Assembly: GCA_030280995.1 (NCBI GenBank)
Contig: JASXTE010000001.1
Coordinates: 17,486,606-17,550,605, forward strand
From: Hemileia vastatrix
Taxonomy: Eukaryota; Basidiomycota; Pucciniomycetes; Pucciniales; Zaghouaniaceae
Length of the DNA stretch: 64,000 nt
Reading direction: 5' to 3'
Shown here: one piece after another, positions 9,447-44,416 of the stretch
Layout of the letters: each line of letters starts with the position of its first letter
Numbering within the stretch: position 1 is the stretch's first letter
Notes under the pieces: generated by a model
Told to the model about the DNA's origin: nothing
Databases searched by the model: none
Seen by the model: only the letters and a program-made list of their open reading frames with translations
Translations under genes and position numbers: made by a program

Positions 9447-11192
9447 ATGACATTTTCTACTTCATTCTCATTACGCCAACAGACAACATTCGCCTGTGCA
9501 ATCCTTGTTTCACTGAGTGCAGGGACAAATTGTCGGTTTCTTTCTTGCTGATTTAAACTTTGAAATGCCACAGATGATAACTCCTTTTGTATTTCTTCAG
9601 ATGCCTTCTCTGCCTACAGCCCTCAACTTGCACAGAAACTCCATTTTTCTTCCACATATCTCAATGCGGTGGGCGTGGCTGGAAATATTGGAATGTACTT
9701 GTCTAGTCCTCTAGTCGGCATCGTTGTCGATAAACGGGGTCCTACTCTCCCTCTTACTGTTGCTTCGGTGCTTTTGTATGTTGGGTATGGCATCGTATGG
9801 AAAATGTTTCGAGATCCCTGGGATATCCCGCCCGATTCTTCATCCGCAAGCCTTTCATCACTCGCAGTCGTGTCTTTTGGAATGTTTCTAACGGGGGTAG
9901 GCTCGTCTGTTGCGCACAGCTCGGCCGTCAATGCCACTGCAAGATCTTTCGGTGACCACATTCGGGCTACCTGTATTGCTGTCGTCTTGGCTAGCTTTGG
10001 GTTATCTGCCTTTTTTTGGACCAGTGTGAACCAATTATTTCTGAGCGACAATCCAGAAGGTTTGCTTCTTGTTCTTGGTCTTGGAACTGGAACCTGTGTA
10101 GCCATCGGTGCTTTTTGCATCAATCCTCCACCCATTTACCCAGGTAGCCATCGAGATCAGTCACAATCCTACCAAGCTATTTCACAAGAAAGTCCTTGTT
10201 CTTCAGATGATAGTCCAGCGTCAGGTTCTCAAATCCCCAACTCGACCCCGTTTTCCGAAGCACAAAATCAAGACATTGCAGATGAGAATGAAGATCACAT
10301 CATCACTGTATCATCAAGCAAAAGCACTCCCATCAGCAATCGTGAACAATCCCTTGACATTTATGGATCACAATTAATCAAATCCACAGATTTTAGTTTT
10401 ATTTTTTTTATCAATGCCATCTGTGCTGGAACGGGGCTGGCAATGATAAACAATCTGGGAACAATTATTAACACTTTATATTTCTACGAGAATCGTGCTC
10501 CCTCACTCAATCCCCGCTCCTTGGGAGTCTTATCGTCTCCCTCCAGGCCCAAAAGTGTCACCAAGCTTCAAGGAGAACAAGTTTCCCTTCTTTCTATCTT
10601 CAACTGTTTTGGAAGAATATTTGCAGGAATGGGTTCAGATTTGTTACAGGCCCGTTTTCATTTTGTGCGGGCATGGTGGTTGACATGGGTGGCCACAATA
10701 TTTCTTCTTGGTCAGCTTTCGGGGTTTCTTTATGTTGACACCGTCTCAAAAGTTCCATTGATTACTGCTCTATCGGGTTTTGCCTATGGCCAAACCTTTG
10801 GTATCGCACCGTCAGTGATATTGATATTCTTTTGTGTAATTTTCAGTTGCTCACAATTATTTTCTTGCAGAGTGTTATTTCTTGAATATTTCGGAACCCC
10901 TCATTTCGCGACCAACTTTGGCATTTTGAACATTGGTCCCATCCTTTCCAGTCAAGTCTTTAATTTTGCTTTTGGAAGAATATACGACTCTCACATTTCT
11001 TCGGTTGACAATCCCAACCAAAAACATGGTCCACACATGTGTCTGTTGGGGAAAGGTTGTTATGAGGATATATTCAAGGTAACGATAACCGCTTGCTCAT
11101 TGGCCCTGGCTTCTTCCTTGATCATTGGCTGGAAGAAACATAACCAAAAGAAAAACACCAAAGCATTACCATTCCTTGGAGATGAGGAATAG
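9447..11192 (+). CDS. Major facilitator superfamily transporter, nodulin-like family
   Basis: Proposed exons are 9447-9531 and 9601-11192, with a 69 bp intron (donor GTCGGT, acceptor TTCTTCAG), giving 558 residues. Splicing recreates the family signature S-A-G-T-N-Y-A-F-S-A-Y-S-P-Q-L across the junction, which is why I extend upstream of the ATG at 9669. Visible features: paired hydrophobic helices, V-D-K-R-G-P in the first cytoplasmic loop, a long hydrophilic central loop rich in Ser/Asp/Glu (about residues 190-290), then I-F-N-C-F-G-R-I-F-A-G and F-G-R-I-Y-D in the second half. The family (yeast YMR155W/MCH1-like and plant nodulin-like proteins) moves small organic solutes across membranes; the substrate here is unknown. 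A stretch near 10825-10870 reads through as coding but looks intron-like (TTTTCAG, TTCTTGCAG), so a second intron is possible. It appears to be an intact host gene. Confidence 0.85.
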
Positions 11193-17322: not shown

Positions 17323-18000
17323 AACGACGACAACGATCAAGCCTGGCGACGAACAACAAAACGCACGGACCACCTAGCAAAACGAAACTTTTGCCGCGAC
17401 TGTGTTTCGAACTTGGGTTCAACATCTTAGGTTTATATAATATTAATTTTTATATTATTTTGAAGTGATTTTTTGATCACTATAGTAAGTTCACCTTTGC
17501 GCCTCTCACTCATATTACTATATTTTTATTGCAATAACAGTGATTGTGGCTTAATTGCTGATTCACTGAGTGTAAGTGTTCAATTTTAAAAATTTTTTTT
17601 TTCCTAGTTGACCATTATAGAGTGTTAAATCCTCTTAGTCCTAGAAGAATTGACATTATTATTAATACAAATTGAATTATTAATTTAATTTTTTTTTATT
17701 ATTAATTATTGTTAATTTTGGTTGACTTAAAAGTACATTGTGCTTAGTCCCAATATATTGCCATATTTAATATTGGTAATTAATTGGTTGAATTAACTTA
17801 CTTGTTATTCCCAATTTAACCTTGCAATCCATTTTTTTTTAAAAAAAAAATTAATTTTTTAATTATTACTTTATATTGAAAATTATTTTTTCTATAATTT
17901 AATTAATTAAATATTTTTTTTATTATTTGGAGCAATTATTGACTAACTTTTATTATTTTTTTTATAAAGTAAAAAGTAAATTATAAATCTTCCCACTAGT
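17323..18000. other. Gypsy-1 untranslated leader
   Basis: About 680 bp between the primer-binding site and the gag-pol ATG. It is very AT-rich after 17450, and no ORF is supported. It presumably contains packaging and translation-control sequences; none is recognisable by eye. Confidence 0.5.
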
Positions 18001-21000
18001 ATGTCCAACAATTTGGCAGAAAAAATGGATAACATGCAAGTGGATGAGATAGAAATTGACTATGATGCTGACACTGTAAGTTCTTCTAAAGTTGGTCATA
18101 AAAAATCTTATGCTAACACAAAGAATTCACATACTGCAGGATGTGGAAATGACAGGAAATGCAAACAAACCAAACCCCCTTCCCCCAGTACCACAGAAGG
18201 AAGTAAAGCCTCTAGTGCCTCAAGAAGGTCTTCCAAAAGGCTTCAAAATAAAAAAGCTTCCTCTGCCACAACAAATCAGCAACCTATCCAGTCATATAAA
18301 AGAGTTGAAGACAGAAAATATGACGTACAAAGCAAAGGTAGACACATTGTGGGATCAGGTCCAAGAACTCAGGAACCAGATTCAGGCCCAGGCCCCTCCT
18401 CAGTTGCCTCCCAATCAGCCTCAGTTTCAGGCTCAACCTTCACAGCCACCCAGCTCAACCATCCAAAATCCAAATACTATGGAAGTAGAGAAATGGAAAT
18501 GGGATTATCTAATGAGTCACTACCAACAGAATGTGCAACACCCTCCTCATCATCAGCCTGGCCCATCCAGAACACCCAATTTCCATCCACCTCCTCATCC
18601 CTACCAACAAGGCAGGAGAAAGAAGGCCCAAGCACAATCCCAAACCCAGTCCCAGGGGAAGTTTCCTCCTCTGCCATGGTAAGTAATTTGGTTGATAGTC
18701 ACTTGGGTATGTTTTCTAATAAATCTTCTTCTGCAGGTAATATTATTGAATATGGTGAAAGAACAGTTAAACCTGTTAAAAGACAGCTTCCTGTAACTAG
18801 TAGCCCTATTGATGTAATTATCAAATTGTCATTTGATGAACCTTTACATTTAACTTCTACATCTTTAATTAATCCTTCTCTTGCAATTAAAAATGATTCT
18901 GTTCCCCCTGAAATCTATACCTTAATTGAAAAAACTTCTGAGGAAATATTGAAAGATACCCTTGATTTTAATATTGTGAAAGACAAACATGTGAGAGATG
19001 TGTTAATCCATGAAAATGATAGATTAAATAATTTACACTTGCAATGTAAAGTGAGTTCTTCTGTACAAGATACAGCTTATTTAAAAATCAAAGAAACCTT
19101 GAATATTGTTCTTAGTCAACAAAAACAAATAAGAAGTGACCATAGAGCTATCTCAGATAGAAATATCAGTCTACATAAGACCTTGAGTGAATTGAAACCC
19201 CTTATTGAGGAAAATTATTCATTCAAGAATGAAATAAAATCTCTGCAAAATGAGTTTAAGAAGCTAAAAAATGATTTCCATGCACTAAGTACCAAACACT
19301 CAGTTTCTGAGGACAGAAATGTTCTATCTCTTGCAAAAGTAAATGACCATATGTCTGAAATTCCAAGAATAAGAAACTATGTGTCTGACCTACAGGAAAA
19401 GTTCTCAACCTTAACCATCAATAATGAATTAAATGAGATTTCTGCAAATAAGCTGCATAAAAATAAAGGGAAAAAACCTGAACAAAGTTCATCCTTTCTT
19501 CCTCATATTTCAACCATTAAACAAACTGACAATGAGTCTGTAAAATCTTTTGCTACTAGCAAAAAATCTTGTGATGGTCATGCACCAGCTGTTTCTGTAA
19601 ATAATGAAATTTCTGAACACCTGGCTAAACTTCAGGAATTATTACTAATGAATAATTCAAACCAAAAAGTGGACCATCCCAGTAGTCAGAAAAATTGGCC
19701 TAAGTTAGACCAATATCCTACCTTTGATGGTGATTCTTCCTCTGATTGGCAACACTTTATCCAGAGAATTGATAATTTAAAGAGATCTTATAAACTACCT
19801 GATGAGGAAATTGTTTCTAAGCTAATTTCTTTATTTTCCAATGTAGCCTTGATGTGGTATGAATCTGTCCTCTTAGATAACAATCATTATACATGGAATG
19901 ATTGGAAATCCTTGATTGAGAATCAGTTTGGTGGTTCAAAATTCAGGTTAGCTCAGCAGAGACTGTATGAGAATACTAGATATGTATCCTCCTCTGTTGA
20001 AAATCCCATTGTTTTTCTGATGAAAATAACTAAAATCCTTAGAGCAATTGATCCAAAGATGGATTATGATATTTGGAGAGATAAAATCTTGTATAAATTA
20101 CCAAATTCTCTTAGGGATTTGATTGTTGCTAGAACTGAGCATGTAAGGGAAAATTCTTCTTTCATTAATATCTGTAATGAAGTACTACTCAACCATAGAT
20201 ATGAACCAAAGAATTACCTTAGTAAATCTTATAATGATCAGAATAAACCTTCTATAAAGCTCCCAGAAAAATCTGGTAAATCCTCTGCCCCAGTTGCACC
20301 TAAAAAATATGCAACAAATACTTGTTATAAATGTAACAAACCGTGGCAGAAGGGTCATGTTTGTGACAAGAAAATTCATCTTGTTGAACAAAATGAAGAC
20401 ACTGATGAAGTTGAACTTGATGTCAATAATTCTTCCAGTGACTGTGAAAGTAATATCTCCTATGACAATGAATCTGTTAAAGATGTTTTAATGTTGGAAC
20501 ATGATGTCCATTATTTAAATAATATATCTGAAGATTGTGTATTGAATTTATCTTCAGTAGAAAATGCTGAGATGATTAAAGATATTACTAACAATTCTAT
20601 TCCTATATCCCCTTTAAAGGCACCTGTTATCATTAATGGTAAAAATGTTGATGTAGTTCTTGATTCTGGTGCTGGAGGAAGTGTAGTATCTGAAAAAGCT
20701 TTGGCTTCAGTGGATAAGGAATATTTGAGTAAATTATTGCCTATAACTTCTGAAAAATGGAGAGGGTATGGTTCTACCTTATTTCCTATTGGCAAATACA
20801 AAACCTCTGTATTCTTCAAATATAATGGTGGTTTTGTCAGAGCTATTTGTGAGTTTGTTGTCATGAAAAATGATAATTTTAGCAATTGGTTTATTATGGG
20901 AAATGATATTTTAACCATGTTTGGTGTGAAACTGGATCCAGCAAATAATTGCTTTACCTTAGGAATGAATGGGAAAAGAAAATTCAAAATTTCTTCTCCT

Positions 21001-24000
21001 AGACCTTCTGGGCATTTGTTGAAATCTTGTAACTCACTGACCCAATGTAAAGGTAGAACAACAACTGAAATGGATGATTTATTACATGAAATAAATACCG
21101 CTTCTTTTGGTGATCAGTTGACTAGTGAACAAAAGGATTCTATTGTTGCCTCTATTACCTCTTTCCCTATGGCTTTTGCTCATGGTTCTCATGTCTTGGG
21201 AATTGTTCAAGAAGAAATGAAGATTACCTTATCCTGTAATTTGAGTAATATTCCTCCTACCCTTAAGAAAAAACCATATCCTGCTTCTCCATCAAAAAGA
21301 AAAGATATTGAAGATAATATTGAAACATTATTGAAAATGAATATCATTGAGAAAGTGGATGTCACCCCCAAATATTGTGTCATCTCCCCAGTCTTAATTT
21401 CTTATGAAAAAGATAAAGCTAGATTATGTGGAGATTACAGAGCTTTAAATACTTATACTGTTGATGATATTTATCCTTTACCCAGAATTAATTCTATACA
21501 TGCTACCTTGCAAGGTGCAAAATTTATTAGTTGTCTGGATGGTAATAAAGGTTATCATCAAGTTCCAGTTGAGAAAAATTCTCAAAATTTTTTGCTTATT
21601 GCTACTCATATGGGAATATATAAGTATGTTAGGATGCCATTTGGCCCTAAAAATGCTCCTTCAGTTTTCCAGCAGGTCATGGATAACACTTTCCATCAAG
21701 AAATTATTGAAGGTTGGCTCATGGTTTATATTGATGATATTATTGTTTTTTCTAAAACTTTTGATGAACATATGATTCATTTGAATAGAGTTTTCCAAAA
21801 AATGGATGAAATCAATATGACCTTATCTTTAAAAAAGTGTAAATTTGGTTTTCAATCTTTGAAAGTCCTTGGCCATGTTGTGTCAGGCTTACAAATTTGT
21901 GTAGACCATAATAAAGTTGCTGCCATTCAAAATGTGAAAGCACCAACTTCTGTAAGAGAAATCCAAAGTTTTTTGGGTATGTGTGGCTATTATAGACAAT
22001 ATATTAAAAATTATCAGGTCATAGCCTTGCCTCTTACAAAACTAACCAGAAAAGATGTTGCTTTTCTCTGGAATAATGACTGTCAGAAAGCTTTTAATAC
22101 ATTGAAAAGTTGCTTAATGACAGCCCCTATATTGGCTCTTCCAGATTTTAACAAGCCATTTGTACTTTATACAGATGCTAGCTTTATTGGTCTGGGAGCT
22201 GCCCTTCACCAAAAGCAAATTATTAATGATAAATCCTCAGAGGTTGTAATTTGTTATATTTCAAGAACCTTAAGAAATAGTGAATTGAAATATGGTGCCA
22301 CTCAATTGGAGTGCTTAGCAGTTGTTTGGGCTCTTGAGAAACTTCATTACTACTTGGATGACCAAAAATTTGAGTTGGTAACTGACTGTAGTGCTGTGAA
22401 ATCTCTCTTAAACCTCAAAACACCTAACAGACATATGTTCAGGTGGCAACTTGCTGTTCAGGAATACAGAGGAAGGATGACTATTATCCATAGAGCTGGA
22501 AATGTTCACTCTAATGTTGATATGCTCTCCAGATTGCCTCTGCCAAATAATGACTCCAATCCTGCTTATGTACCTGAAGATGATACTGTTCATATACATG
22601 GTATATTTATAGTTGATATGGAAGAAGAGTTATTACAGTTAATACTGGATTCATATGATAAAGATTCTGACTTAAATAAATTAGTTACTATTTTGAATGA
22701 TCCTAAGAATGCTTCAATTCAAGCATTAATAAAAACTCTTCCTGCAAAGTACCAAAATGCTTTAAATAAAGGAAAGTTTTCTATTGAAGATGGTTATATA
22801 TATTATAGAAGGAAGCTTACCAATGTAATTGTTATTCCTCCTTCAATGAAAGAAACTATCCTCAAACTTTGTCATGATGACATATTAGCTGGTCATTTTG
22901 ATCTTGAAAAAACATTGATTAGAATCAAAAACACTGCATGGTGGGCTAATATGTCTGAAGACACAAAATTATATGTTGAATCTTGTGATTCCTGCCAAAA
23001 ATCTAAAAGGTTAACAGGTAAGAGAGCAGGGTTATTACAACATATTGAAGCACCTAGTGCTCCCTGGCAAATCATTAATATGGATTTTGTCACTGGTCTT
23101 CCTGTTGCAGGTAAAGACAGCTTTAACTCTTGTTGGGTAATAGTTGATAGATTCACAAAAATGTGCAAATTTATTCCAACCCACAAAGATGTATCCACCA
23201 AAGAATTAGCTTTCTTATGGTGGTCTTACATGTTTAATATTATTGGTTTTCCAAAAGCCATTATCTCTGATAGGGATCCAAAATTCACTTCTGAGTTTTG
23301 GACCTCTTTGATGGATATTTGTGGCTGTGAGTTAAAATTGTCTACAGCTCACCATCCTCAGACTGATGGTCTAGCTGAAAGAATGATTCAAACTCTGGAA
23401 GATATGATTAGAAGGTATTGTGCCTTTGGTTTAGAATATAAAGACAATGACAGATTTACTCATGATTGGGCCACTCTTTTGCCTGGTCTTGAATTTGCAT
23501 ATAATAGCACTGTTCATTCTGTCACTGAGAAAAAGCCTTTTGAGCTTTGGTTAGGTTATGTCCCAAACACTCCTGCTCAGATTCTCAATAATAAATTACC
23601 TAAGTTGGAACTACACCCTGGTGTAAAATCTTTTATGCAAATGCAACAGCTATGCAGAAAACATGCTCAGAGTTGTATTGATAAAGCATTTGAATATGAA
23701 AAGAAAAGATGGGATAAATCCCATAAAGAATACACATTTAACAAGGGTGATGAAGTGTTGATCTCTACTGTCCATTTCAATTTACAAGGTAACCACAAAT
23801 TAAAAGATCCTTTTGTAGGACCATTTGTTGTTAAAAGAATGGTTGGTGATAATGCAGTAGAAGTTGTATTGTATTCTCCATATGATAGGAAACATCCTGT
23901 CTTTCCCATTTCTTTGCTTAAACCTTATACTTCCAACAGTGACTTATTTCCAAAAAGAAGAGGAAGACCTAAGAAGAACCCTCAGGAAGTCACAGAAACA

Positions 24001-24168
24001 GCAGAAATTGATAAAATTCTCAATGATAGAATTATCACTTCTGAAAGAGGTACTGAATATTTATTGAGATATAAGAACCAATCATCTGAACATGATGCAT
24101 GGATACCTGGCAAGGAAATTTCAAATCTGCCTGCTCTGTTGAAAAAATACAAAAAGAAAAAATCTTAG
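18001..24168 (+). CDS. Gypsy-1 gag-pol polyprotein with chromodomain
   Basis: A single 2055-residue ORF. Order: Ser-rich N-terminus (1-260), coiled coil (about 320-500), capsid-like retrotrans-gag domain (about 560-740, K-N-W-P-K-L-D-Q-Y-P), zinc knuckle C-Y-K-C-N-K-P-W-Q-K-G-H-V-C (about 775), aspartic protease V-L-D-S-G-A (about 888), reverse transcriptase with Y-I-D-D (about 1243), RNase H with Y-T-D-A-S (about 1392), integrase with H-H-C-C finger (H-D-D-I-L-A-G-H ... C-D-S-C) and D-D-E core (N-M-D-F, S-D-R-D, L-A-E-R), then K-R-R-G-R-P-K-K, an AT-hook-like patch, and a C-terminal chromodomain (W-I-P-G-K). There is no stop between gag and pol, so both would be made as one chain. The chromodomain should steer integration to marked chromatin. 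Everything needed for transposition looks intact. Confidence 0.93.
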   Translation: MSNNLAEKMDNMQVDEIEIDYDADTVSSSKVGHKKSYANTKNSHTAGCGNDRKCKQTKPPSPSTTEGSKASSASRRSSKRLQNKKASSATTNQQPIQSYKRVEDRKYDVQSKGRHIVGSGPRTQEPDSGPGPSSVASQSASVSGSTFTATQLNHPKSKYYGSREMEMGLSNESLPTECATPSSSSAWPIQNTQFPSTSSSLPTRQEKEGPSTIPNPVPGEVSSSAMVSNLVDSHLGMFSNKSSSAGNIIEYGERTVKPVKRQLPVTSSPIDVIIKLSFDEPLHLTSTSLINPSLAIKNDSVPPEIYTLIEKTSEEILKDTLDFNIVKDKHVRDVLIHENDRLNNLHLQCKVSSSVQDTAYLKIKETLNIVLSQQKQIRSDHRAISDRNISLHKTLSELKPLIEENYSFKNEIKSLQNEFKKLKNDFHALSTKHSVSEDRNVLSLAKVNDHMSEIPRIRNYVSDLQEKFSTLTINNELNEISANKLHKNKGKKPEQSSSFLPHISTIKQTDNESVKSFATSKKSCDGHAPAVSVNNEISEHLAKLQELLLMNNSNQKVDHPSSQKNWPKLDQYPTFDGDSSSDWQHFIQRIDNLKRSYKLPDEEIVSKLISLFSNVALMWYESVLLDNNHYTWNDWKSLIENQFGGSKFRLAQQRLYENTRYVSSSVENPIVFLMKITKILRAIDPKMDYDIWRDKILYKLPNSLRDLIVARTEHVRENSSFINICNEVLLNHRYEPKNYLSKSYNDQNKPSIKLPEKSGKSSAPVAPKKYATNTCYKCNKPWQKGHVCDKKIHLVEQNEDTDEVELDVNNSSSDCESNISYDNESVKDVLMLEHDVHYLNNISEDCVLNLSSVENAEMIKDITNNSIPISPLKAPVIINGKNVDVVLDSGAGGSVVSEKALASVDKEYLSKLLPITSEKWRGYGSTLFPIGKYKTSVFFKYNGGFVRAICEFVVMKNDNFSNWFIMGNDILTMFGVKLDPANNCFTLGMNGKRKFKISSPRPSGHLLKSCNSLTQCKGRTTTEMDDLLHEINTASFGDQLTSEQKDSIVASITSFPMAFAHGSHVLGIVQEEMKITLSCNLSNIPPTLKKKPYPASPSKRKDIEDNIETLLKMNIIEKVDVTPKYCVISPVLISYEKDKARLCGDYRALNTYTVDDIYPLPRINSIHATLQGAKFISCLDGNKGYHQVPVEKNSQNFLLIATHMGIYKYVRMPFGPKNAPSVFQQVMDNTFHQEIIEGWLMVYIDDIIVFSKTFDEHMIHLNRVFQKMDEINMTLSLKKCKFGFQSLKVLGHVVSGLQICVDHNKVAAIQNVKAPTSVREIQSFLGMCGYYRQYIKNYQVIALPLTKLTRKDVAFLWNNDCQKAFNTLKSCLMTAPILALPDFNKPFVLYTDASFIGLGAALHQKQIINDKSSEVVICYISRTLRNSELKYGATQLECLAVVWALEKLHYYLDDQKFELVTDCSAVKSLLNLKTPNRHMFRWQLAVQEYRGRMTIIHRAGNVHSNVDMLSRLPLPNNDSNPAYVPEDDTVHIHGIFIVDMEEELLQLILDSYDKDSDLNKLVTILNDPKNASIQALIKTLPAKYQNALNKGKFSIEDGYIYYRRKLTNVIVIPPSMKETILKLCHDDILAGHFDLEKTLIRIKNTAWWANMSEDTKLYVESCDSCQKSKRLTGKRAGLLQHIEAPSAPWQIINMDFVTGLPVAGKDSFNSCWVIVDRFTKMCKFIPTHKDVSTKELAFLWWSYMFNIIGFPKAIISDRDPKFTSEFWTSLMDICGCELKLSTAHHPQTDGLAERMIQTLEDMIRRYCAFGLEYKDNDRFTHDWATLLPGLEFAYNSTVHSVTEKKPFELWLGYVPNTPAQILNNKLPKLELHPGVKSFMQMQQLCRKHAQSCIDKAFEYEKKRWDKSHKEYTFNKGDEVLISTVHFNLQGNHKLKDPFVGPFVVKRMVGDNAVEVVLYSPYDRKHPVFPISLLKPYTSNSDLFPKRRGRPKKNPQEVTETAEIDKILNDRIITSERGTEYLLRYKNQSSEHDAWIPGKEISNLPALLKKYKKKKS
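18092..18682 (+). CDS. Overlapping out-of-frame ORF in gypsy-1 gag N-terminus
   Basis: A 196-codon ORF lies in the +1 frame inside the start of gag-pol. The likely start is an internal ATG near 18149, in line with the second element. It has a predicted coiled coil, Pro/Gln-rich linkers, a V-E-K-W-K-W-D-Y motif, basic R-R-K-K and an ending P-P-L-P-W-stop. The decayed second gypsy element has an ORF of the same offset (39551-40000) with V-R-K-W-K-W-D-W, H-P-Y-x-x-x-x-R-R and an ending R-P-W-stop. The main-frame protein over this stretch is Ser-rich and poorly ordered. Shared features in two diverged elements suggest a real protein, but it is unproven and of unknown role. Confidence 0.5.
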   Translation: MVIKNLMLTQRIHILQDVEMTGNANKPNPLPPVPQKEVKPLVPQEGLPKGFKIKKLPLPQQISNLSSHIKELKTENMTYKAKVDTLWDQVQELRNQIQAQAPPQLPPNQPQFQAQPSQPPSSTIQNPNTMEVEKWKWDYLMSHYQQNVQHPPHHQPGPSRTPNFHPPPHPYQQGRRKKAQAQSQTQSQGKFPPLPW

Positions 24169-30118: not shown

Positions 30119-30815
30119 GGTCAAGCTCTAGCGCACAGTGATAGATCACTAAAATATTGCCCATTTGGTTATAATAGGTTGAATGACCAAATTACTTTCC
30201 AATGTCTTATTTTCGACCTTGATGGACTTGATTTCCGCGAAGTTAAGCCACTTTTCTTTAGAATTAGTGTTTACATGATGTTAAGAAAATCAAATAATCC
30301 CCTAAACTCGAGCTTGAAAAAGATCGAAACATTAAGAACGAAAAATGCTGCTTGACGCTATAAATATGAAGGAAATTCACGTTCACGAATTATCAAAACC
30401 TTTATCACAGCATCAATTGATATAATTTATTTTATTCAAACCAAATTTTCGCACGCAGGTCTATTACTTCATTTTGAGAAATTAAGAGCCTGGGTTCAGG
30501 CCCTCATTGAAATCATGCTGTTTTCAGAAAACGTGCATCTTTTTTTTTTATCTTTCGAAACTATTGATCATGCGCATTTAACTTTTCTCAGTTGGCAATA
30601 TCATTACCAACACAAACTGATGAAATCTCCAGATTCAAACTCCAGAATGAGGACTCTTTTACTATAAAGAGTGCTGGATTTATCTTCTTTTTTTTCCTCA
30701 TTCGCCAGTCAGTTTCTATTCTTGTTGCGTTTTTATTCTTTCCTTCTTTTCTATTTTTTCATCCTCTTCACTTAAGTTCCCGATTCACGAAAAACATCTT
30801 ATTTTTAAGACTAAA

Positions 30816-32400
30816 ATGGGACTCAGAAATATTTTGTTTCTTTCCTTTATTGCCTTTTCAACGATTCAAGGATCAGTGGTACAGAAAAGCTTACTAGAAC
30901 CTCGTTTGGTATACTTTTATTTTTCATTTTTTATTTCCAGATAACTTGTTTGAACTGATTAACTTAATTTAAAATCTTTTGCTTAACATTGATTTTAATG
31001 CAGAGTGTTGATACCAAGGTAGTACTGGAAGATTTTTCCCGATCCAACAACTTAATAACAGCAATAAACGCAAATGTCGACAATCTTCCAAGCTCAGTTA
31101 ATAACAGTCTAGTGTCATTAAGTGCTTCCACTTTCCAATCAAATATATTGGCACTTAATGCTCAAATTAACCTGGCAACAAAACATTTAGCGGTGAGCTT
31201 TTTCACTAATCTGGAGTTTAACCTTTATTTCTTACAGTTTTAATTTTCAACCACTCGCAGTCGGTGGGCGTCAGCGCAACAGTGGATGCTGCTTTGATTT
31301 CTCTGAAACTTAATACTGTATGTCTTCAGTATTCCCTTGAACACTTCAATATCTTTTTCTGTTAAATTTTTTTTGCATCTATGTTAGCTTGGTCAATCCT
31401 TGTTGGATTTACTCTCCGGGATACTCAGTGGGGCTACTATTTTAATAAAGCTTGACTCAGCCACAAAAGTGAATGCCGCAATTGTAGAACTTCAAGTTGC
31501 TATCCAGGTACGCATATTGTGGAATTTAATTCATCAAAATTATTTATGGTGGAGCTGATATTCTCCAATTGTCCATTAAGCTCTATTTAACTGCATTAAG
31601 CCAATATCTCCCCACTCAAACTTCTTTTATTGCCGACCTGAGAGCACGTTTAACAATCAGTCTACAAGCGGCGGTTAATGCCACTCTAGTTTCTTTGGTA
31701 AATTTCCCGTTGCATTTTATTTTTTTATAAAAATATGTTTATATGTTTTGAATAAATTACGACGCTAGGATGTGAATAGTAGGCTTGTCCTCGGCGACAT
31801 TAATGTGCAGATCAAGTTGGGGAACACTCTTGCAACATCTGTTACCACTACAGCAACTAATGCTACCATCATACTTTCTCAAGTGGCATTGATCAAGGGG
31901 ACCATGGATTTGGCAACTAATCGATTATTGGTAAGTACCAATGAAGTATTCATGGACTTTGTTAAATTAGAGCTAAAGTGAGTGTGACACAGGGCATTTC
32001 TTCAAATGTTGCGACTGACATTGATGTGGCTTTGATCGCTGGATTACAAGTGGTAAAACAACGCATGTTTTATATTTTATTTCAAGATGCACAAGCTAAT
32101 TTTTTTTTCAATAGCTCTCAAACATTTGGGTGAGAATACTTTTAGAAATATCTAATGATTGGAAATCATTACTCCCAGTCAGTGTAAAAGCAGAGATCCA
32201 CGCTGCTCTGCTGGGCCTTCAAGTTTCTATCGCGGTAAGTTCTTAGCTTGGATTTGATTGAGACATATGCTAATAGACCGATTTATCAGCTTTACATAAA
32301 AGCTTTACGTGAATGGCTTCCTGCGAAAAGGGCCATTATTTTAGCGATTGAAATGACTTTGAGGGACAACCTTGCAAAAGCACTGGTGGCAACGTCTTGA
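30816..32400 (+). CDS. Secreted helical protein with duplicated four-exon block (unknown family)
   Basis: Nine exons: 30816-30908, 31004-31192, 31261-31317, 31388-31507, 31581-31697, 31769-31930, 31993-32049, 32115-32234, 32290-32400, encoding 341 residues. Every intron is GT-AG, 55-95 bp and phase 0. Exon 1 is a signal peptide (M-G-L-R-N-I-L-F-L-S-F-I-A-F-S, cleavage probably after T-I-Q-G). Exons 2-5 and 6-9 are the same block: lengths 63/54, 19/19, 40/40 and 39/36 codons, with matching ends (exon 4 ELQVAIQ, exon 8 LGLQVSIA) and starts (exon 5 LYLTALSQYLP, exon 9 LYIKALREWLP). The sequence is rich in Ala/Leu/Ser/Thr with predicted amphipathic helices and has no cysteine. I recognise no domain. 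The open frame through nine exons argues for a real, selected gene; a secreted effector or cell-surface protein is a guess. Confidence 0.8.
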
Positions 32401-32977
32401 AGAAGTGTCATGTTCGATGACAGCGGTTTGTTCGGGATACTATGAGTGGATGAAAATATCACTGTAATTCTTGATATATTCTTGTTTTCTTGACGGTGAT
32501 TGAGCAACTGGCGCTCTAGTATTGGAAAGGAGTCGGAGAAGAGCATATTATTTTGGACCTTGTGCTGTAGAGGTTTTAGATGGTTCAAAGACAATGAAAA
32601 TGTAGCACGTGGGATAGAACTTCAAATTTAATTTGAGAGAAACAATTTAAATCTCGGCTTACTTTCTGGGATGTTCATTCAAAATTTACAACCCTTACCA
32701 GAAACTCGAAATCTTCACTTAAGAATATAAAATCAAAAGTCTGAGGGAGACACTGTATCACTCCAACATGAGGTTTGCGTTGCCAGCTAAAAGGTGGAGT
32801 TTTAAATAGAAAGCAAGGATAACTGAAAAGGAGGAAGTGGAGTTTTCAGTAAACATTGTAAAATACAACTGGGTTATGATTTGTGAGTAAAAAAACAGTC
32901 GCTTGATTTTAGAGTGACTTGCTCAATTTCTTTGATGATAATCAATATTTCTAAGTATAGTAAGTACATACATATTG
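32401..32977. other. Region downstream of the secreted-protein gene
   Basis: Contains the 3' UTR and no recognised gene. An open frame on the minus strand (32292-32594) only mirrors the last exon and its downstream sequence. Confidence 0.5.
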
Positions 32978-33173
32978 GGGGGTATCAAGGTTAGAATTTG
33001 TAATTATTTAAAAGGTATTTCACAACGCAAAAAGAAAGCCAAAAACTTGACATTAATTCTCAGTAAAAAGGTGTTTTTGGGCACAATATGGCATATTTTA
33101 AAAAATAATCATGGTTGATTTGGTGGAAAAAAGAGTTATTTTGAAATGGAAGATTTCTAACTTTGATACCCCC
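32978..33173. mobile_element. MITE copy 2 (196 bp)
   Basis: Starts GGGGGTATCAAGGTTAGAAT and ends TTTCTAACTTTGATACCCCC. The body matches copies at 12281, 33423 and 47254 in inverted order relative to 12281. It is flanked by TATTG and TATTA, one base different. Immediately to the right, GTGGGTATCAAAAT looks like a second, partial end. Confidence 0.87.
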
Positions 33174-33422
33174 TATTAGTGGGTATCAAAATTTCAAAAT
33201 ATTGTCTTACAAATCCAACACTGCGCTTAGGAGTTTGCGAAATCACACATCAGATTTTGGAAACTCATTAGCCCCAGAGCTGGTCAATTTCAAAGGAAGT
33301 GTCACCGGATGACCTATGCACTTAGTTGAGTGAGCTCAAGAGAACTGAGAGTCAAGAAATTAGAATAGCTTTGAATGTCCTTTGAGTTAATTAGGAACAC
33401 CAAGAAGTAACATACTGGATAA

Positions 33423-38892: not shown

Positions 38893-39462
38893 CAAGAATT
38901 CTGTTATAATCCAGTAAGTGAAAATTTCAAAGAAGGTACATGTAAATAATATCCCTATAGAAATATTTGGATAATTACAACAGGTTGGGGTCACTTATAT
39001 AGTGATTTCAGAAAAAGAAGCCCTGTTATATAATAAAATTGTGATATTGAATCAACAATTTTACCACTAATTTAACATAAAATTGTTATTAGTGGGAGTC
39101 TGTCAATAGACCAATTAAATTTGTGATCTTTGTAGATAATAAACCAATTAAACTGATTAATTGTTTTCTTTTATCAGGACTCTTAATCTTTTCTTTTTAT
39201 TGGTTTGTGACATTCATTAAATATTTAGAAAAAATCTTACTGACAGTTGTTTTCTTTTAAATATAAAAACATGGCTACATATTGTAGACCAGTTAAATCA
39301 AGTGACCACATAAAAGCATATTTGACTTTTGGCACTTAAAGATTCACTTCATACCAATAAGTAAGCAATAAAATTGTCCTCAGTGGTATTTATAAATACT
39401 GATAAAACTCCTTTTTCAAGTTTTCATATCTAAACTTTCAATTCTTTAAATTCCTCGTGAAA

Positions 39463-42400
39463 ATGTGTGACAACAATGACATTGTAAGTAATAAGGCAAA
39501 ACCTTATAACTTAAGACCTAGAGCTGAAAGACCTGTTACAGGACATTCAAATGGAGGGCCAGGACTCTCCCATAATCAACAACACTCCGCCAATATCTCT
39601 GGAGGAAAGGGAAAAGCTTTTAAAGCAAGTTTCAATAAAGAAAACAAAAAATACTTTACAAGAACAGGTTCACTCCCTATCCACCCTACTGAACACCTTG
39701 AGAATAAGAGTCAACAATATAGTGGACCAGATCAAAAATCTAGAGAAAAGAGCAGCTCAAGGTTTCATAGAAGTCAACCAAGCTCTAGTGGACATAAAGG
39801 CTCAACCACCAATAGTGGCACCCAACAATTCCATAGCAACATCTCCAGCCCAAGAGGAGGACCAAAAAATTACAGTAAGAAAATGGAAATGGGATTGGTA
39901 CGCCCAAAACTACAACAACCCTCCTCAACAAGGATCCAGCAGTCACCCTTACAGGGGAAAGCCAAGGAGAGGCAGGGGAAATGGAATAAGACCGTGGTAA
40001 GTCATCCATCTTCTCAGGATCAATTATATAATCCTAACAATGAATTACTTATAGGTAATGAAATTGATAGAGAGGTATTGGATATAATTGATAAGTATTT
40101 AAAAAATTATTCATTTGAAAATAACATGTTAGACTTGTCTTTCAATGAGGACAATGTACATAGTTTTATTGACCACCAGGAAAATACTATTAATATAAAA
40201 ATGGAATCAAATGAATTTAATCTTGACCCTGATGATGAGTCTTCTGAATTATACACAGACAAAATTGAATATTTTCTAAAAGAAAATCCAATGGAATCAT
40301 TAATAATTAGTAAATTATTATTAAGAATTGAAAAATTGGAAGAATTCTCTAAAGAGTCCAACAATAATACAGAAAGTGTATTGTTAAACCTCACACAATC
40401 ATTGAGTACAACAGCCAATAGGTTAAAGATTATTGAGAATTCAAATAATGATTTAATCAATGAAAACAAAAGATTAAACTCTGAGATTAAAGATTTAGAA
40501 AATAAATTAGAACATTCTCAGAATATTATGGCTACCATAGAGGGACGTGTAAAATTGTCTTTTTCAAATGTAAATGATACCTTAACTCATGTACCTGTAA
40601 TAAAAGATAGGTTACAAAGAGTAGAAATTGAAGTAGCTAACATTTTGAAAAATACTGAAAAAATAAAAGATAATACCTCTTATGTGGATAGAGTACCAGT
40701 TTTTATGAAACACTCTGATAATAAACCAATGATTGAACATGAACATAGTGTCATGGGCTCTGAGAATATAAAATCAGTAAAAGATGAAATAAATGATCAT
40801 CTTTCTAAAGTAAGTGAATTAATCAATATTCCTCAGGTTAGGGAAGCAAAAACTAGCCAAAAGAACTGGCCTAAGTTAGATCAATACCCTTCTTTTGACG
40901 GGGATTCAAAATCTGATTGGCAGCAATTCATACAAAGAATTGATAACTTAAAATTTTCATACAAATTACCTGATGAAGAAATTACTTCAAAGTTAATATC
41001 TTTATTTACAGATGTGGCCTTATTATGGTTTGAATCTGTATTGAGTGAGGGAATTAATTACTCCTGGAATGAATAGAAGGCACTAATTGAAAGGCAATTT
41101 GGTGGCCCAAAATTTAGAATCACTCAACAAAGATTGTATGAAAGAACCATATATAATCCAAATGCTGGAGATAAACCCATGGTCTTCTTAATGACTTTAA
41201 TAAAAATCATGAAAGCTATGGATCCAAAAATGGATTATGAAGAGTGGAAAAAAAATAATATACAAGTTGCCTATATCAGTTAGAGACATTATTGTGGCTA
41301 GAACTGAAACCATCAGAGATACCTCTGGATTCATTAATATATGCAATGAGATATTATTAAACCACAAGTATGAAACCAAGTATAGTAATTACAGACAAAG
41401 TGTTGACATGGTAAAACCTACTACAAGTAAGTTACCAGTGGAGAAGAAAAAACCTTCAGCTCCCCTTGTCCCTAAGAGACAAGAGAATAACACTTGTTGC
41501 AAATGTAATGAACCTTGGGTTAAGGGTCACACGTGTAAGAAGAGAATAAATGTTATTGAAACCTCACAGAATTCTGAACCAAGTAATCATGAAGATGAGA
41601 ACATGGAATCCAGTGAGGATAGTAAAAGTAACATATCTTACAGTGATGATGAAAATGAGATATTTGTATTAGAACAGGATATTATGTTCCTGAATGATGC
41701 TATACCTCATACAGACACATCTTTAACTTCCATAGAGGAAGCTGAAATAATTAAAGATGTATCTCATGATACTTACAACATAACACCTATCAGAGCACCT
41801 GTTATAATATGTGGAAAAGAAATGAATGCCATTCTTGACACTGGGGCTGCAGGTAGTGTAGTTTCAATTAATACATTAATGAAACTTGATATTAAGTACC
41901 AGGAAAAACTAGAACCTGTTCAGACAAAGAACTGGAGGGGTTTTGGTTCAGTATTAAATCCAATTGGAAAATACAAAACTGCTGTATTCTTTAAATATAA
42001 TAATGGATATGTTAGAGCAGTTTGTGAATTTTTAGTAATGGATAATAATAATTGCAGCGATTGGTTTATTATTGGCAAAGAATTATTGACAAAATTTGGC
42101 ATTAAACTAGATCCTGCAAACAGTTGCTTCACCATAGGCATGAATGGTAAGAGAAAATTCAAAATATGTTCTGAAAATTCAGTATATTCCATTTCTTATA
42201 GAGAAGATCAACTGCAAGGTGGAAGAACCACCACTGAAGTGGTTGAATTGGAAAATGAAATCCAAAAGGCCTCATTCAGTCCTCAACTCTCAAAAATTGA
42301 AGAAGAAAATATTTTGAGATTGATTTAATCATATCCTATGGCATTTGCTCATGGTTCAAATGAACTAGGATTGGTCAAAGACCATGAGATGAAAATCTCT

Positions 42401-44195
42401 CTAAGCTGTGATTTGGATAATATTCCTGGCAGCCTAAAAAAGAAACCTTACCCAGAATCTCCTGCAAAAAGGAAAGATATTGAAGACAATATAAAAATGT
42501 TGTTGGAAATGGGTATTGTTGAAAAAGTGGACACAACACCTAAGTATTGTGTCATTTCACCAGTATTAATATCTTATGAAAAAGATAAGGCAAGATCATG
42601 CGGTGATTATAGAGCTCTGAATGCATACACAGTAGATGATATTTACCCTCTACCAAGGATAGCTTCTATCCATGCTACTTTACAAGGAGCAAAATATATT
42701 TCCTGTCTGGATGGAAACAAGGGTTAGCACCAGATTCCTGTGGAAAGAAATTCTCAAAATTCCTTATTAATAACCACACATATGGGTATATATAAGTATG
42801 TGAGAATGCCATTTGGCCCAAAGAATGCGCCTTCAGTCTTCCAAAAATTGATGGATAGTGTTTTTTTCAGGAAATGGTTGAAGGATGGCTATTGGTCTAT
42901 ATTGATGACATCATAGTGTTTTCAAAAACATATGATGAAAATTTAAATCACCTGAAAAGAGTCTTTCAAAAAATGAATGAAATTAATATGACAATTGCAT
43001 TAAAGAAATGTAAATTTGGATTTCAATCCTTGAAAGTACTTGGACATGTTGTATCTGGATTACAAATTTGTGTTGACCAGAATAAGGTGGCAGCAATTAA
43101 AAACATTTGGATACCTAAAAATGTAAAAGAGGTTCAAAGTTTTTTGGGTATGTGTGGATATTATAGACAATATATCAAAAATTGCCAATCCATTGCAGCT
43201 CCCTTAACAACATTAATCAGGAAAAATGAGGCTTTCATTTGGAATAATGAAAGACAACACGCCTTTAATAAATTAAAGGAATGTTTAATTTCAGCTCCAA
43301 TATTGGGACTGCCAGATTTCACCCTACCTTTTATCTTGTACACTGATGCAAGCTTCATAGGTTTAGGTGCTGCTTTACAGCAGAAACAGATAATAAATGG
43401 AAAATTATCTGAAGTAGTTATCTGTTATATATCCAGAACCTTAAGAAAAACAGAGTTAAGGTATGGTTCCACACAGCTAGAATGCTTAGCCATGGTGTGG
43501 GCTTTGGAGAAGCTTCATTACTATCTGGAAGACCAGAAGTTTGAACTTATAACAGATTGCAGTGCAGTAAAATCATTACTAAACATGAAAACACCTAATA
43601 GGCACATGTTTAGATGGCAACTAGCTGTACAAGAGTACAGAGGAAGAATGAAAATCACTCACAGAGCAGGAACATTGCATTCTAATGTGGATTTATTATC
43701 CAGAAGTCCTTTGCCAAATGATGCTGACAACCCAGCTTATGTACCTGAAAATGAGGTTATACATATATTTGGGATTTATATAGTGGATTTAGAAGAAGAG
43801 TTTATGCAAACTATATTAGAAAATTATTCTTCTGATAAAGATTTGACTAAACTATCTACCATTCTTAATGATCCAACAAATGCCTCCATGAGTGCATTAA
43901 TTAAAACATTGCCTCCAAAGTATAAAAATGCATTGGAAAAAGGTAAACTATCAATTGAAGATGGATATATATATTACAGAAAAAAGTTAAGTAATGTAAT
44001 AGTAATACCACCTTTTATGAAAGAGTTAATGTTGAGTACTTGTCATGATGACATCTTAGCTGGTCATTTTGACTTTAACAAAACATTAACCAGAGTTAAA
44101 AATACAGCCTGGTGGATAAACATGAAACAAGATGTACAAAAATACATTGAAACATGTGACTCTTGTCAGAAATCTAAAAGATTAACTGGGAAGAG
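39463..44195 (+). pseudogene. Gypsy-2 gag-pol, broken and truncated
   Basis: Starts M-C-D-N-N-D with Y-N-L-R-P-R soon after. Domain order as in gypsy-1: low-complexity N-terminus, coiled coil, capsid domain (K-N-W-P-K-L-D-Q-Y-P), zinc knuckle (C-C-K-C-N-E-P-W-V-K-G-H-T-C), protease (I-L-D-T-G-A), reverse transcriptase (Y-I-D-D), RNase H (Y-T-D-A-S), integrase finger. Breaks: TAG at 41074-41076 (a Trp position in gypsy-1), a one-base loss in an A-run near 41251, TAA at 42326-42328, TAG at 42725-42727 (a Tyr position), and a frame change near 42860 just before Y-I-D-D. The protein stops at the junction with Copia-1. Confidence 0.88.
39551..40000 (+). CDS. Overlapping out-of-frame ORF in gypsy-2 gag N-terminus
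   Basis: A 149-codon ORF in the +1 frame relative to gag-pol, beginning M-E-G-Q-D-S-P. It has a coiled-coil part (L-Q-E-Q-V-H-S-L-S), then V-R-K-W-K-W-D-W, Asn/Gln/Pro linkers, H-P-Y-R-G-K-P-R-R-G-R-G and R-P-W-stop. It parallels the gypsy-1 ORF at 18092-18682 in offset, order of features and final P-W. It is still open although the main frame has decayed further downstream. Function unknown; it may be an RNA- or nucleic-acid-binding accessory protein, judging only from its basic tail. Confidence 0.48.
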   Translation: MEGQDSPIINNTPPISLEEREKLLKQVSIKKTKNTLQEQVHSLSTLLNTLRIRVNNIVDQIKNLEKRAAQGFIEVNQALVDIKAQPPIVAPNNSIATSPAQEEDQKITVRKWKWDWYAQNYNNPPQQGSSSHPYRGKPRRGRGNGIRPW

Positions 44196-44416
44196 AGTGA
44201 ATGAAATTCATCATCCTCATTATTGGTGGGAGTTGTAGCAGGATTGGGAATGTCACTCTCTATCTCTGGCTCTTGTCCAGTTTCAATGTATTTGTCCTCA
44301 ATAAAGAGATTGGGCCATAAGATTTTGGGCTTCATTGGTTCATCAAAAGGAATGCAGTCTTCATTAAAGATGATGTTGTGAGAGTAGAATGGTTTACTAG
44401 TCTCAAAATTGAGAAG

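Follow-up and report, generated by a model that had tools for sequence, protein, structure and literature searches.

A predicted secreted protein of Hemileia vastatrix encoded by nine exons, with an internal duplication of a four-exon block

RESULTS

Gene structure

The window, a stretch of 64,000 nucleotides from the Hemileia vastatrix genome assembly (747.6 Mb, 791 contigs), had a GC content of 0.343. Nine exons joined at GT-AG sites yielded one open reading frame of 342 codons plus a stop codon (Table 1), and neither a stop codon nor a frame break interrupted the spliced 342 codons. The eight introns were 55 to 95 nt long, began with GT, ended with AG and were each of phase 0. The GC content was 0.41 in the exons versus 0.28 in the introns. 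The acceptor of exon 5 was AAG, a less usual type. An in-frame stop codon was located upstream at 30648, with no in-frame ATG from there to the start codon.

The initial annotation had described a single nine-exon GT-AG frame with phase-0 introns throughout, and both statements agreed with the splice model (eight of eight introns of phase 0). Its total of 341 codons was revised, as 19 codons in exon 7 would require the donor GTGGTA rather than GTAAAA. Because GTAAAA is the more ordinary donor, 20 codons for exon 7 and 342 in total were preferred. Of the exon pairs that had been given as equal in length, exons 4 and 8 had 40 codons each, whereas exons 3 and 7 had 19 and 20 codons and not 19 each.

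Table 1. Positions of the gene and of neighbouring features in the window
Feature	Position	Strand	Description
TATA-like element	30663..30670	+	Putative, by pattern match alone; about 150 nt 5' of the start codon
Exon 1	30816..30908	+	31 codons; signal-peptide-like, hydrophobic core ILFLSFIAFSTI; from the splice model
Exon 2	31004..31192	+	63 codons; first exon of module A, counterpart of exon 6
Exon 3	31261..31317	+	19 codons; second exon of module A, counterpart of exon 7
Exon 4	31388..31507	+	40 codons; third exon of module A, counterpart of exon 8
Exon 5	31581..31697	+	39 codons; fourth exon of module A, starts LYLTALSQYLP, counterpart of exon 9
Exon 6	31769..31930	+	54 codons; first exon of module B
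Exon 7	31993..32052	+	20 codons (19 with the GTGGTA donor); second exon of module B
Exon 8	32115..32234	+	40 codons; third exon of module B
Exon 9	32290..32400	+	36 codons plus stop; fourth exon of module B, starts LYIKALREWLP
MFS/Nodulin-like transporter	9564-11192		542-codon frame
Gypsy element	17998-24165		Open gag-pol frame, 2056 codons
Second ORF of this element	18080-18682		Overlaps the gag-pol start
Related Gypsy copy	39406-44238		Frame broken into several ORFs
Second ORF of this copy	39515-40000		Overlaps the gag-pol start
Repeat	32972-33188		About 205-215 bp; looks like a MITE
Inverted pair	32978 and 33163		11 bp, GGGGGTATCAA, near the repeat ends

Genomic neighborhood

The neighborhood was transposon-rich. 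Ten of the 19 listed ORFs were scanned: five contained reverse transcriptase, RNase H or retrotransposon domains, one was an MFS transporter, and four had no Pfam family at E ≤ 0.001. The transporter, of the MFS/Nodulin-like type, was the sole recognized non-transposon gene among the ten. The 686 bases upstream of the gene matched nothing but themselves in the genome.

Two related Gypsy elements were present in the window, one of them with an open gag-pol frame that carries a chromodomain at its end. In both elements the start of gag-pol was overlapped by a second ORF, each time in the +1 frame relative to it, and the two overlapping ORFs had a common K-W-K-W-D motif followed by a basic tail. 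A K-C-K-W-D stretch was visible at another locus (L011, about 1002-1310). Judged from these sequences, the overlapping ORF is possibly a conserved overlapping gene of that element family. A short repeat located 0.57 kb 3' of the nine-exon gene, with 91-97% matches at at least 39 other places in the genome (40 of 999 candidates scored) and an 11-bp inverted pair near its ends, looks like a MITE.

Duplication of exons 2-5 and 6-9

Block A (exons 2-5, 161 aa) was compared with block B (exons 6-9, 150 aa). BLASTP aligned the two blocks with 38.5 bits and E 5e-9, and 33 of 114 columns were identical (29%). The local BLOSUM62 alignment scored 121 (z about 10), which was reached by none of 1000 shuffles. 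HHalign yielded a score of 37.8 (probability 82%, E 1e-5), whereas 60 shuffled controls from one run averaged 11.9 and peaked at 20.7. When the shuffles kept the residue classes, and with them the hydrophobic/polar pattern, the maximum in 1000 was 92 versus the observed 121, and the reversed-block controls gave z values of 0.8 and 0.7; neither composition nor hydrophobic pattern therefore explains the match. Rotated block B scored up to 118, but rotation leaves the order mostly intact, so this score, which is as expected, was not used as a control.

In the alignment, the exon ends of block A coincided with those of block B in all three cases, at columns 67, 88 and 128. The chance of three random positions all coinciding is about 2e-6, where the coincidence at column 88 depends on the 20-codon exon 7, picked by its donor before the alignment was made. 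Nucleotide identity at codon positions 1, 2 and 3 was 0.42, 0.55 and 0.35 in exons 4/8, and 0.51, 0.60 and 0.29 in the first 35 codons of exons 5/9. Position 2 was the most kept and position 3 the least, a pattern as expected of ancient coding duplicates that would have been under selection. Introns 2/6 and 4/8 retained no similarity, being no more alike than shuffles, and introns 3/7 demonstrated a weak trace that was reached by 12 of 300 shuffles. Because the intron positions coincide while the similarity of the intron sequences is nearly gone, the four-exon block, including its introns, was duplicated long ago.

Exons 2-5 and 6-9 are thus firmly supported as true duplicates from an old duplication. 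The initial annotation had proposed that the gene arose by internal duplication of a four-exon module and had named an HHalign comparison of exons 2-5 with 6-9 as a test of the idea; similarity was found in this comparison, well above the shuffled maximum, as it was by BLASTP, and all three intron positions coincided.

Exon pairs and search for a finer repeat

The single exon pairs were uneven. In global alignments, z was 4.5 for pair 2/6, 5.1 for 4/8 and 5.4 for 5/9; pair 3/7 was the weakest, with z 2.0 and 41 of 1000 shuffles reaching it. In local alignments, pair 5/9 was strong (z 7.9, none of 1000 shuffles), pairs 4/8 and 3/7 were moderate (reached by 10 and 17 of 1000 shuffles, respectively), and pair 2/6 was not significant (z 1.1, reached by 178 of 1000 shuffles). 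The pairing of exons 2 and 6 also requires gaps of 4 and 13 residues. Unpaired exons (3/8, 3/5 and 5/8) matched locally with z of about 4-6, as well as some true pairs did, and a short motif read by eye, AA-L-x-x-L, was behind these matches. Given the uneven single pairs and the unpaired matches, the evidence for duplication sits in the collinear block and not in each exon.

The exon lengths and the 3/5, 3/8 and 5/8 matches hinted at a repeat of about 20 residues within the modules. A lag scan gave z values of 0.7 at lag 19, -0.9 at 20 and 1.0 at 21, compared to 5.3 at the module lag of 153 and 2.6 at the next best lag. With no lag near 20 standing out, the inner repeat was set aside rather than rejected.

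Frame length under free splicing

An unguided dynamic-programming splice search was performed with phase-0 introns of 50-110 nt and with A, C or T allowed before AG. The best path, obtained independently of the hand splice, had 342 codons in nine exons. In 100 dinucleotide shuffles the same search reached a mean of 83 and a maximum of 264 codons, and none reached 342. With introns of any phase the search yielded 352 codons in nine exons, which none of 100 shuffles reached (mean 128, maximum 313). When only C or T was allowed before AG, the AAG acceptor of exon 5 was missed and the path fell to 169 codons, exceeded by one of 40 shuffles. Among 74 other tiles of the window on both strands, three exceeded 342 codons with phase-0 introns (499, 480 and 409) and seven exceeded 352 codons with introns of any phase; the window contains ORFs of 535 to 2062 codons. 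Free splicing is a real hazard, and the length of the frame by itself is good but not overwhelming evidence. The strongest backing for the gene model is the internal duplication.

These lengths in shuffles and tiles are what would speak for an over-fitted path through non-coding DNA, or else for a decayed or untranscribed gene. However, the two blocks match in frame, at their intron positions and with substitutions of the coding type, which an over-fitted path would not yield, and an uninterrupted frame argues against decay. We consider this explanation very improbable. As the introns of the two modules share a common origin, about five of the eight phase-0 introns can be regarded as independent, a number that would not stand out among thousands of genes.

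Properties and predicted fold of the protein

The predicted product had 342 residues, about 320 after the predicted signal peptide, and its N-terminus was signal-peptide-like on inspection. The mature part was rich in Leu (18%), Ala (13%), Ser (10%), Ile (9%) and Val (9%), and the protein contained three N-glycosylation sequons. The absence of cysteine and of a recognized domain, which the initial annotation had reported, was reproduced: the translation contained no Cys, and there was no match in Pfam or NCBIfam. The modules, each of about 150-160 residues, were strongly hydrophobic (GRAVY 0.64).

Three 19-residue windows (residues 117-135, 258-276 and 294-312) had mean Kyte-Doolittle values above 1.6, as they would if some of the hydrophobic helices were transmembrane segments of a membrane-bound or membrane-inserting protein. 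The peaks were low, however (at most 1.85), every window contained charged or polar residues, and, when the modules are compared, the single window of module A shares only part of its place with one of the two module B windows. A membrane protein is accordingly an unlikely reading of these modules.

The alternation of hydrophobicity at 170 degrees, which is strand-like, was clearly raised (0.292 versus 0.200 ± 0.021 in shuffles), and the helix-like periodicity at 100 degrees was slightly raised (0.233 versus 0.198 ± 0.018). The mean strand propensity (1.09) was slightly higher than the helix propensity (1.05). In view of the strong two-residue alternation and the strand propensity, an all-helix fold is not favored. 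Structure models covered exons 2 and 8, each as an isolated short piece. Exon 8, modeled in a two-row alignment with exon 4, formed a helical hairpin (residues 2-16 and 22-39, pLDDT 79.6). Exon 2, modeled in a two-row alignment with exon 6, formed two helices (residues 2-26 and 30-62), with a mean pLDDT of 88.7 in the best model and 58-69 in the other four. AlphaFold tends to render short pieces helical. On these models, moderate weight is given to the prediction that each module may be a small helical bundle.

Searches for relatives

When the whole protein was searched against a protein database including NCBI fungal proteins, 7995 candidates were scored and not one passed E 0.001; with a two-block profile, none of 2164 candidates passed E 10; both searches rely on shared five-residue words, by which distant relatives could be missed. 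In its own genome the gene had ten matches, nine of which were the gene itself. The tenth (E 7.6) was located within sequence that by eye resembled the Gypsy gag of the window and was taken as chance. The gene is thus apparently without close paralogues, those as distant as the two blocks being invisible to this search, in which a block A query misses block B at E ≤ 10. Neither the genome nor the scored protein-database candidates contained a copy that differed in module number.

Neither the whole protein nor either block belonged to a Pfam family; block A matched DUF6114 with E 0.89, under the family cut-off. NCBIfam and a plasmid collection yielded no match. No PDB chain was matched by phmmer with the single sequence at E ≤ 10. 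The two-block profile retrieved six Sm D1 chains from the PDB with E 0.58-1.7, which were taken as chance. These two PDB searches are the sequence comparison that bears on an AvrM-like WY-type four-helix repeat.

Comparison with the HsbA family

The LY-x-AL-x-x-LP motif and the composition of the protein gave a lead to HsbA (PF12296), by which the gene would be a divergent member of this family with two domains in tandem. Size and composition were similar by eye, and the motif was near the site where the compared HsbA proteins carry a Phe followed by Leu or Val-Leu and then by Pro. The region of this motif was also the sole segment that HHalign aligned to an HsbA profile. This alignment had a probability of 0.05% and a score of 9.3, however, below the mean of 12.1 in 60 column-shuffled controls; the profile was narrow, with 11 sequences (10 of 12 database matches and one hand-spliced protein). 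PF12296 (cut-off 33.5 bits) gave no match at E ≤ 10 with the whole protein or with either block, whereas the positive control, a hand-spliced HsbA protein of the same genome, scored 77.5 bits. In pairwise alignments with HsbA proteins, 12 per block, no comparison exceeded z 2.8. In the hand-spliced HsbA gene the three introns were, on manual reading, of phases 1, 2 and 1, compared to phase 0 throughout here. HsbA membership was therefore rejected at the sequence level, and we regard a divergent HsbA gene as improbable.

Five HsbA matches were obtained in the same genome at E ≤ 10. They clustered at three sites on contigs roughly 100 kb long, and none exceeded the cut-off before splicing. The 3-kb stretches around three of these matches had a GC content of 0.45-0.47 versus 0.34 in the window. 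The named database matches to the hand-spliced HsbA protein were from Ustilago, Sporisorium and Tilletia. These contigs may be contaminants from an epiphyte or a smut-like fungus.

DISCUSSION

Schistosome micro-exon genes are a parallel: their secreted products are encoded by numerous symmetric exons, any of which may be skipped with the frame kept. The exons described here, of 57-189 nt, are not micro-exons. Mp1p belongs to the HsbA/PF12296 family, has a helical fold and has domains close in size to the modules of the present protein.

Internal repeats in rust secreted proteins are already in print (PMC4617103), and this gene looks like a further example. That paper counts 493 repeat-containing members among the 1549 predicted secreted proteins of Melampsora larici-populina and reports none among 1852 in P. 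graminis f. sp. tritici. AvrM-A of the flax rust Melampsora lini is described there as a protein of 343 aa with two degenerate tandem repeats that have four-helix folds. It resembles our protein in being a secreted rust protein (secretion being predicted here) of similar length with two degenerate internal repeats, helical in AvrM-A and predicted to be so here. It differs in that its repeats are 68 aa long, hydrophilic and recognized only from structure, whereas the modules here are of 150-160 aa, hydrophobic, 29% identical and bounded by phase-0 introns. CTP1 of Melampsora larici-populina, likewise a rust secreted protein with two near-tandem, imperfect repeats, differs in that these are of 64 aa and accompanied by a predicted chloroplast transit peptide (PMC4617103). 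As far as the descriptions of AvrM-A and CTP1 go, retained intron positions and module size set our gene apart from both. Among the papers listed, titles and the opening lines of abstracts contained no report of exon-module duplication in rust secreted proteins, which is no proof of absence; PMC6170375, in its accessible part, is not about this subject.

The comparison with AvrM-A bears on a rival reading, in which the gene encodes a repeat-built rust effector that would be secreted at the haustorium and act on or in plant cells through two degenerate helical repeats. The signal-peptide-like start, the lack of a recognized domain or relatives, the transposon-rich setting, and the frequency of repeat-containing secreted proteins in M. 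larici-populina together with the AvrM-A precedent are all consistent with an effector. Against it are the finding of none in P. graminis f. sp. tritici, the contrast between the short hydrophilic repeats of AvrM-A and the long hydrophobic modules here, and the PDB search, in which the single sequence matched no chain. An effector is a possible reading, to which we give clearly less credence than to the one that follows.

We consider it probable (about 0.6) that this is an intact coding gene for a secreted two-module protein, formed by an ancient tandem duplication of four exons. Alongside the computed splice model, duplication, intron coincidence and coding-type conservation, we infer transcription and secretion. 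The ancient event would have been a tandem copying of a genomic segment with four exons and their introns. Unequal exchange between introns is its probable mechanism, which would be frame-neutral because phase-0 introns flank the block on both sides. The mature part of the protein would then consist of a pair of homologous modules, of about 150-160 residues and four phase-0 exons apiece.

The binding function, taken by itself, is a tentative proposal of low weight drawn by analogy: the modules might bind a hydrophobic ligand or surface outside the cell, in the manner of wall proteins with tandem lipid-binding domains such as Mp1p, and the duplication would then supply two binding units. Mp1p of Talaromyces marneffei is a lipid-binding wall or secreted protein with two lipid-binding domains (PMC5488042). 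Both proteins are two-unit proteins; PF12296 was not matched here, and the likeness is drawn from the accessible description of Mp1p and not from sequence.

A bolder extension would make this gene the first seen member of a secreted rust family built on a portable, intron-bounded module of 150 residues that folds independently. Members of this family would vary in module number and exon content between species or by exon skipping, and the phase-0 symmetry at every junction would have been selected. We think this quite unlikely. The initial annotation had likewise seen the phase-0 modular exons as a route to ready gain and loss of modules in a possibly host-facing protein. The searched genome and protein database, which yielded no close copy and no variant module number, and the old age of the duplication lend no support to such gain and loss; a host-facing role may be suggested by the signal-peptide-like start. 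Taken alone, the duplication is evolutionarily commonplace, and the protein has no recognized relatives. It is also a clear case, from one genome, of the duplication of an exon-intron block forming a predicted secreted protein, with the intron positions preserved despite divergence of the protein to 29% identity. If rust relatives differ in module number, the gene would offer a test of whether intron phase aids the diversification of secreted proteins.
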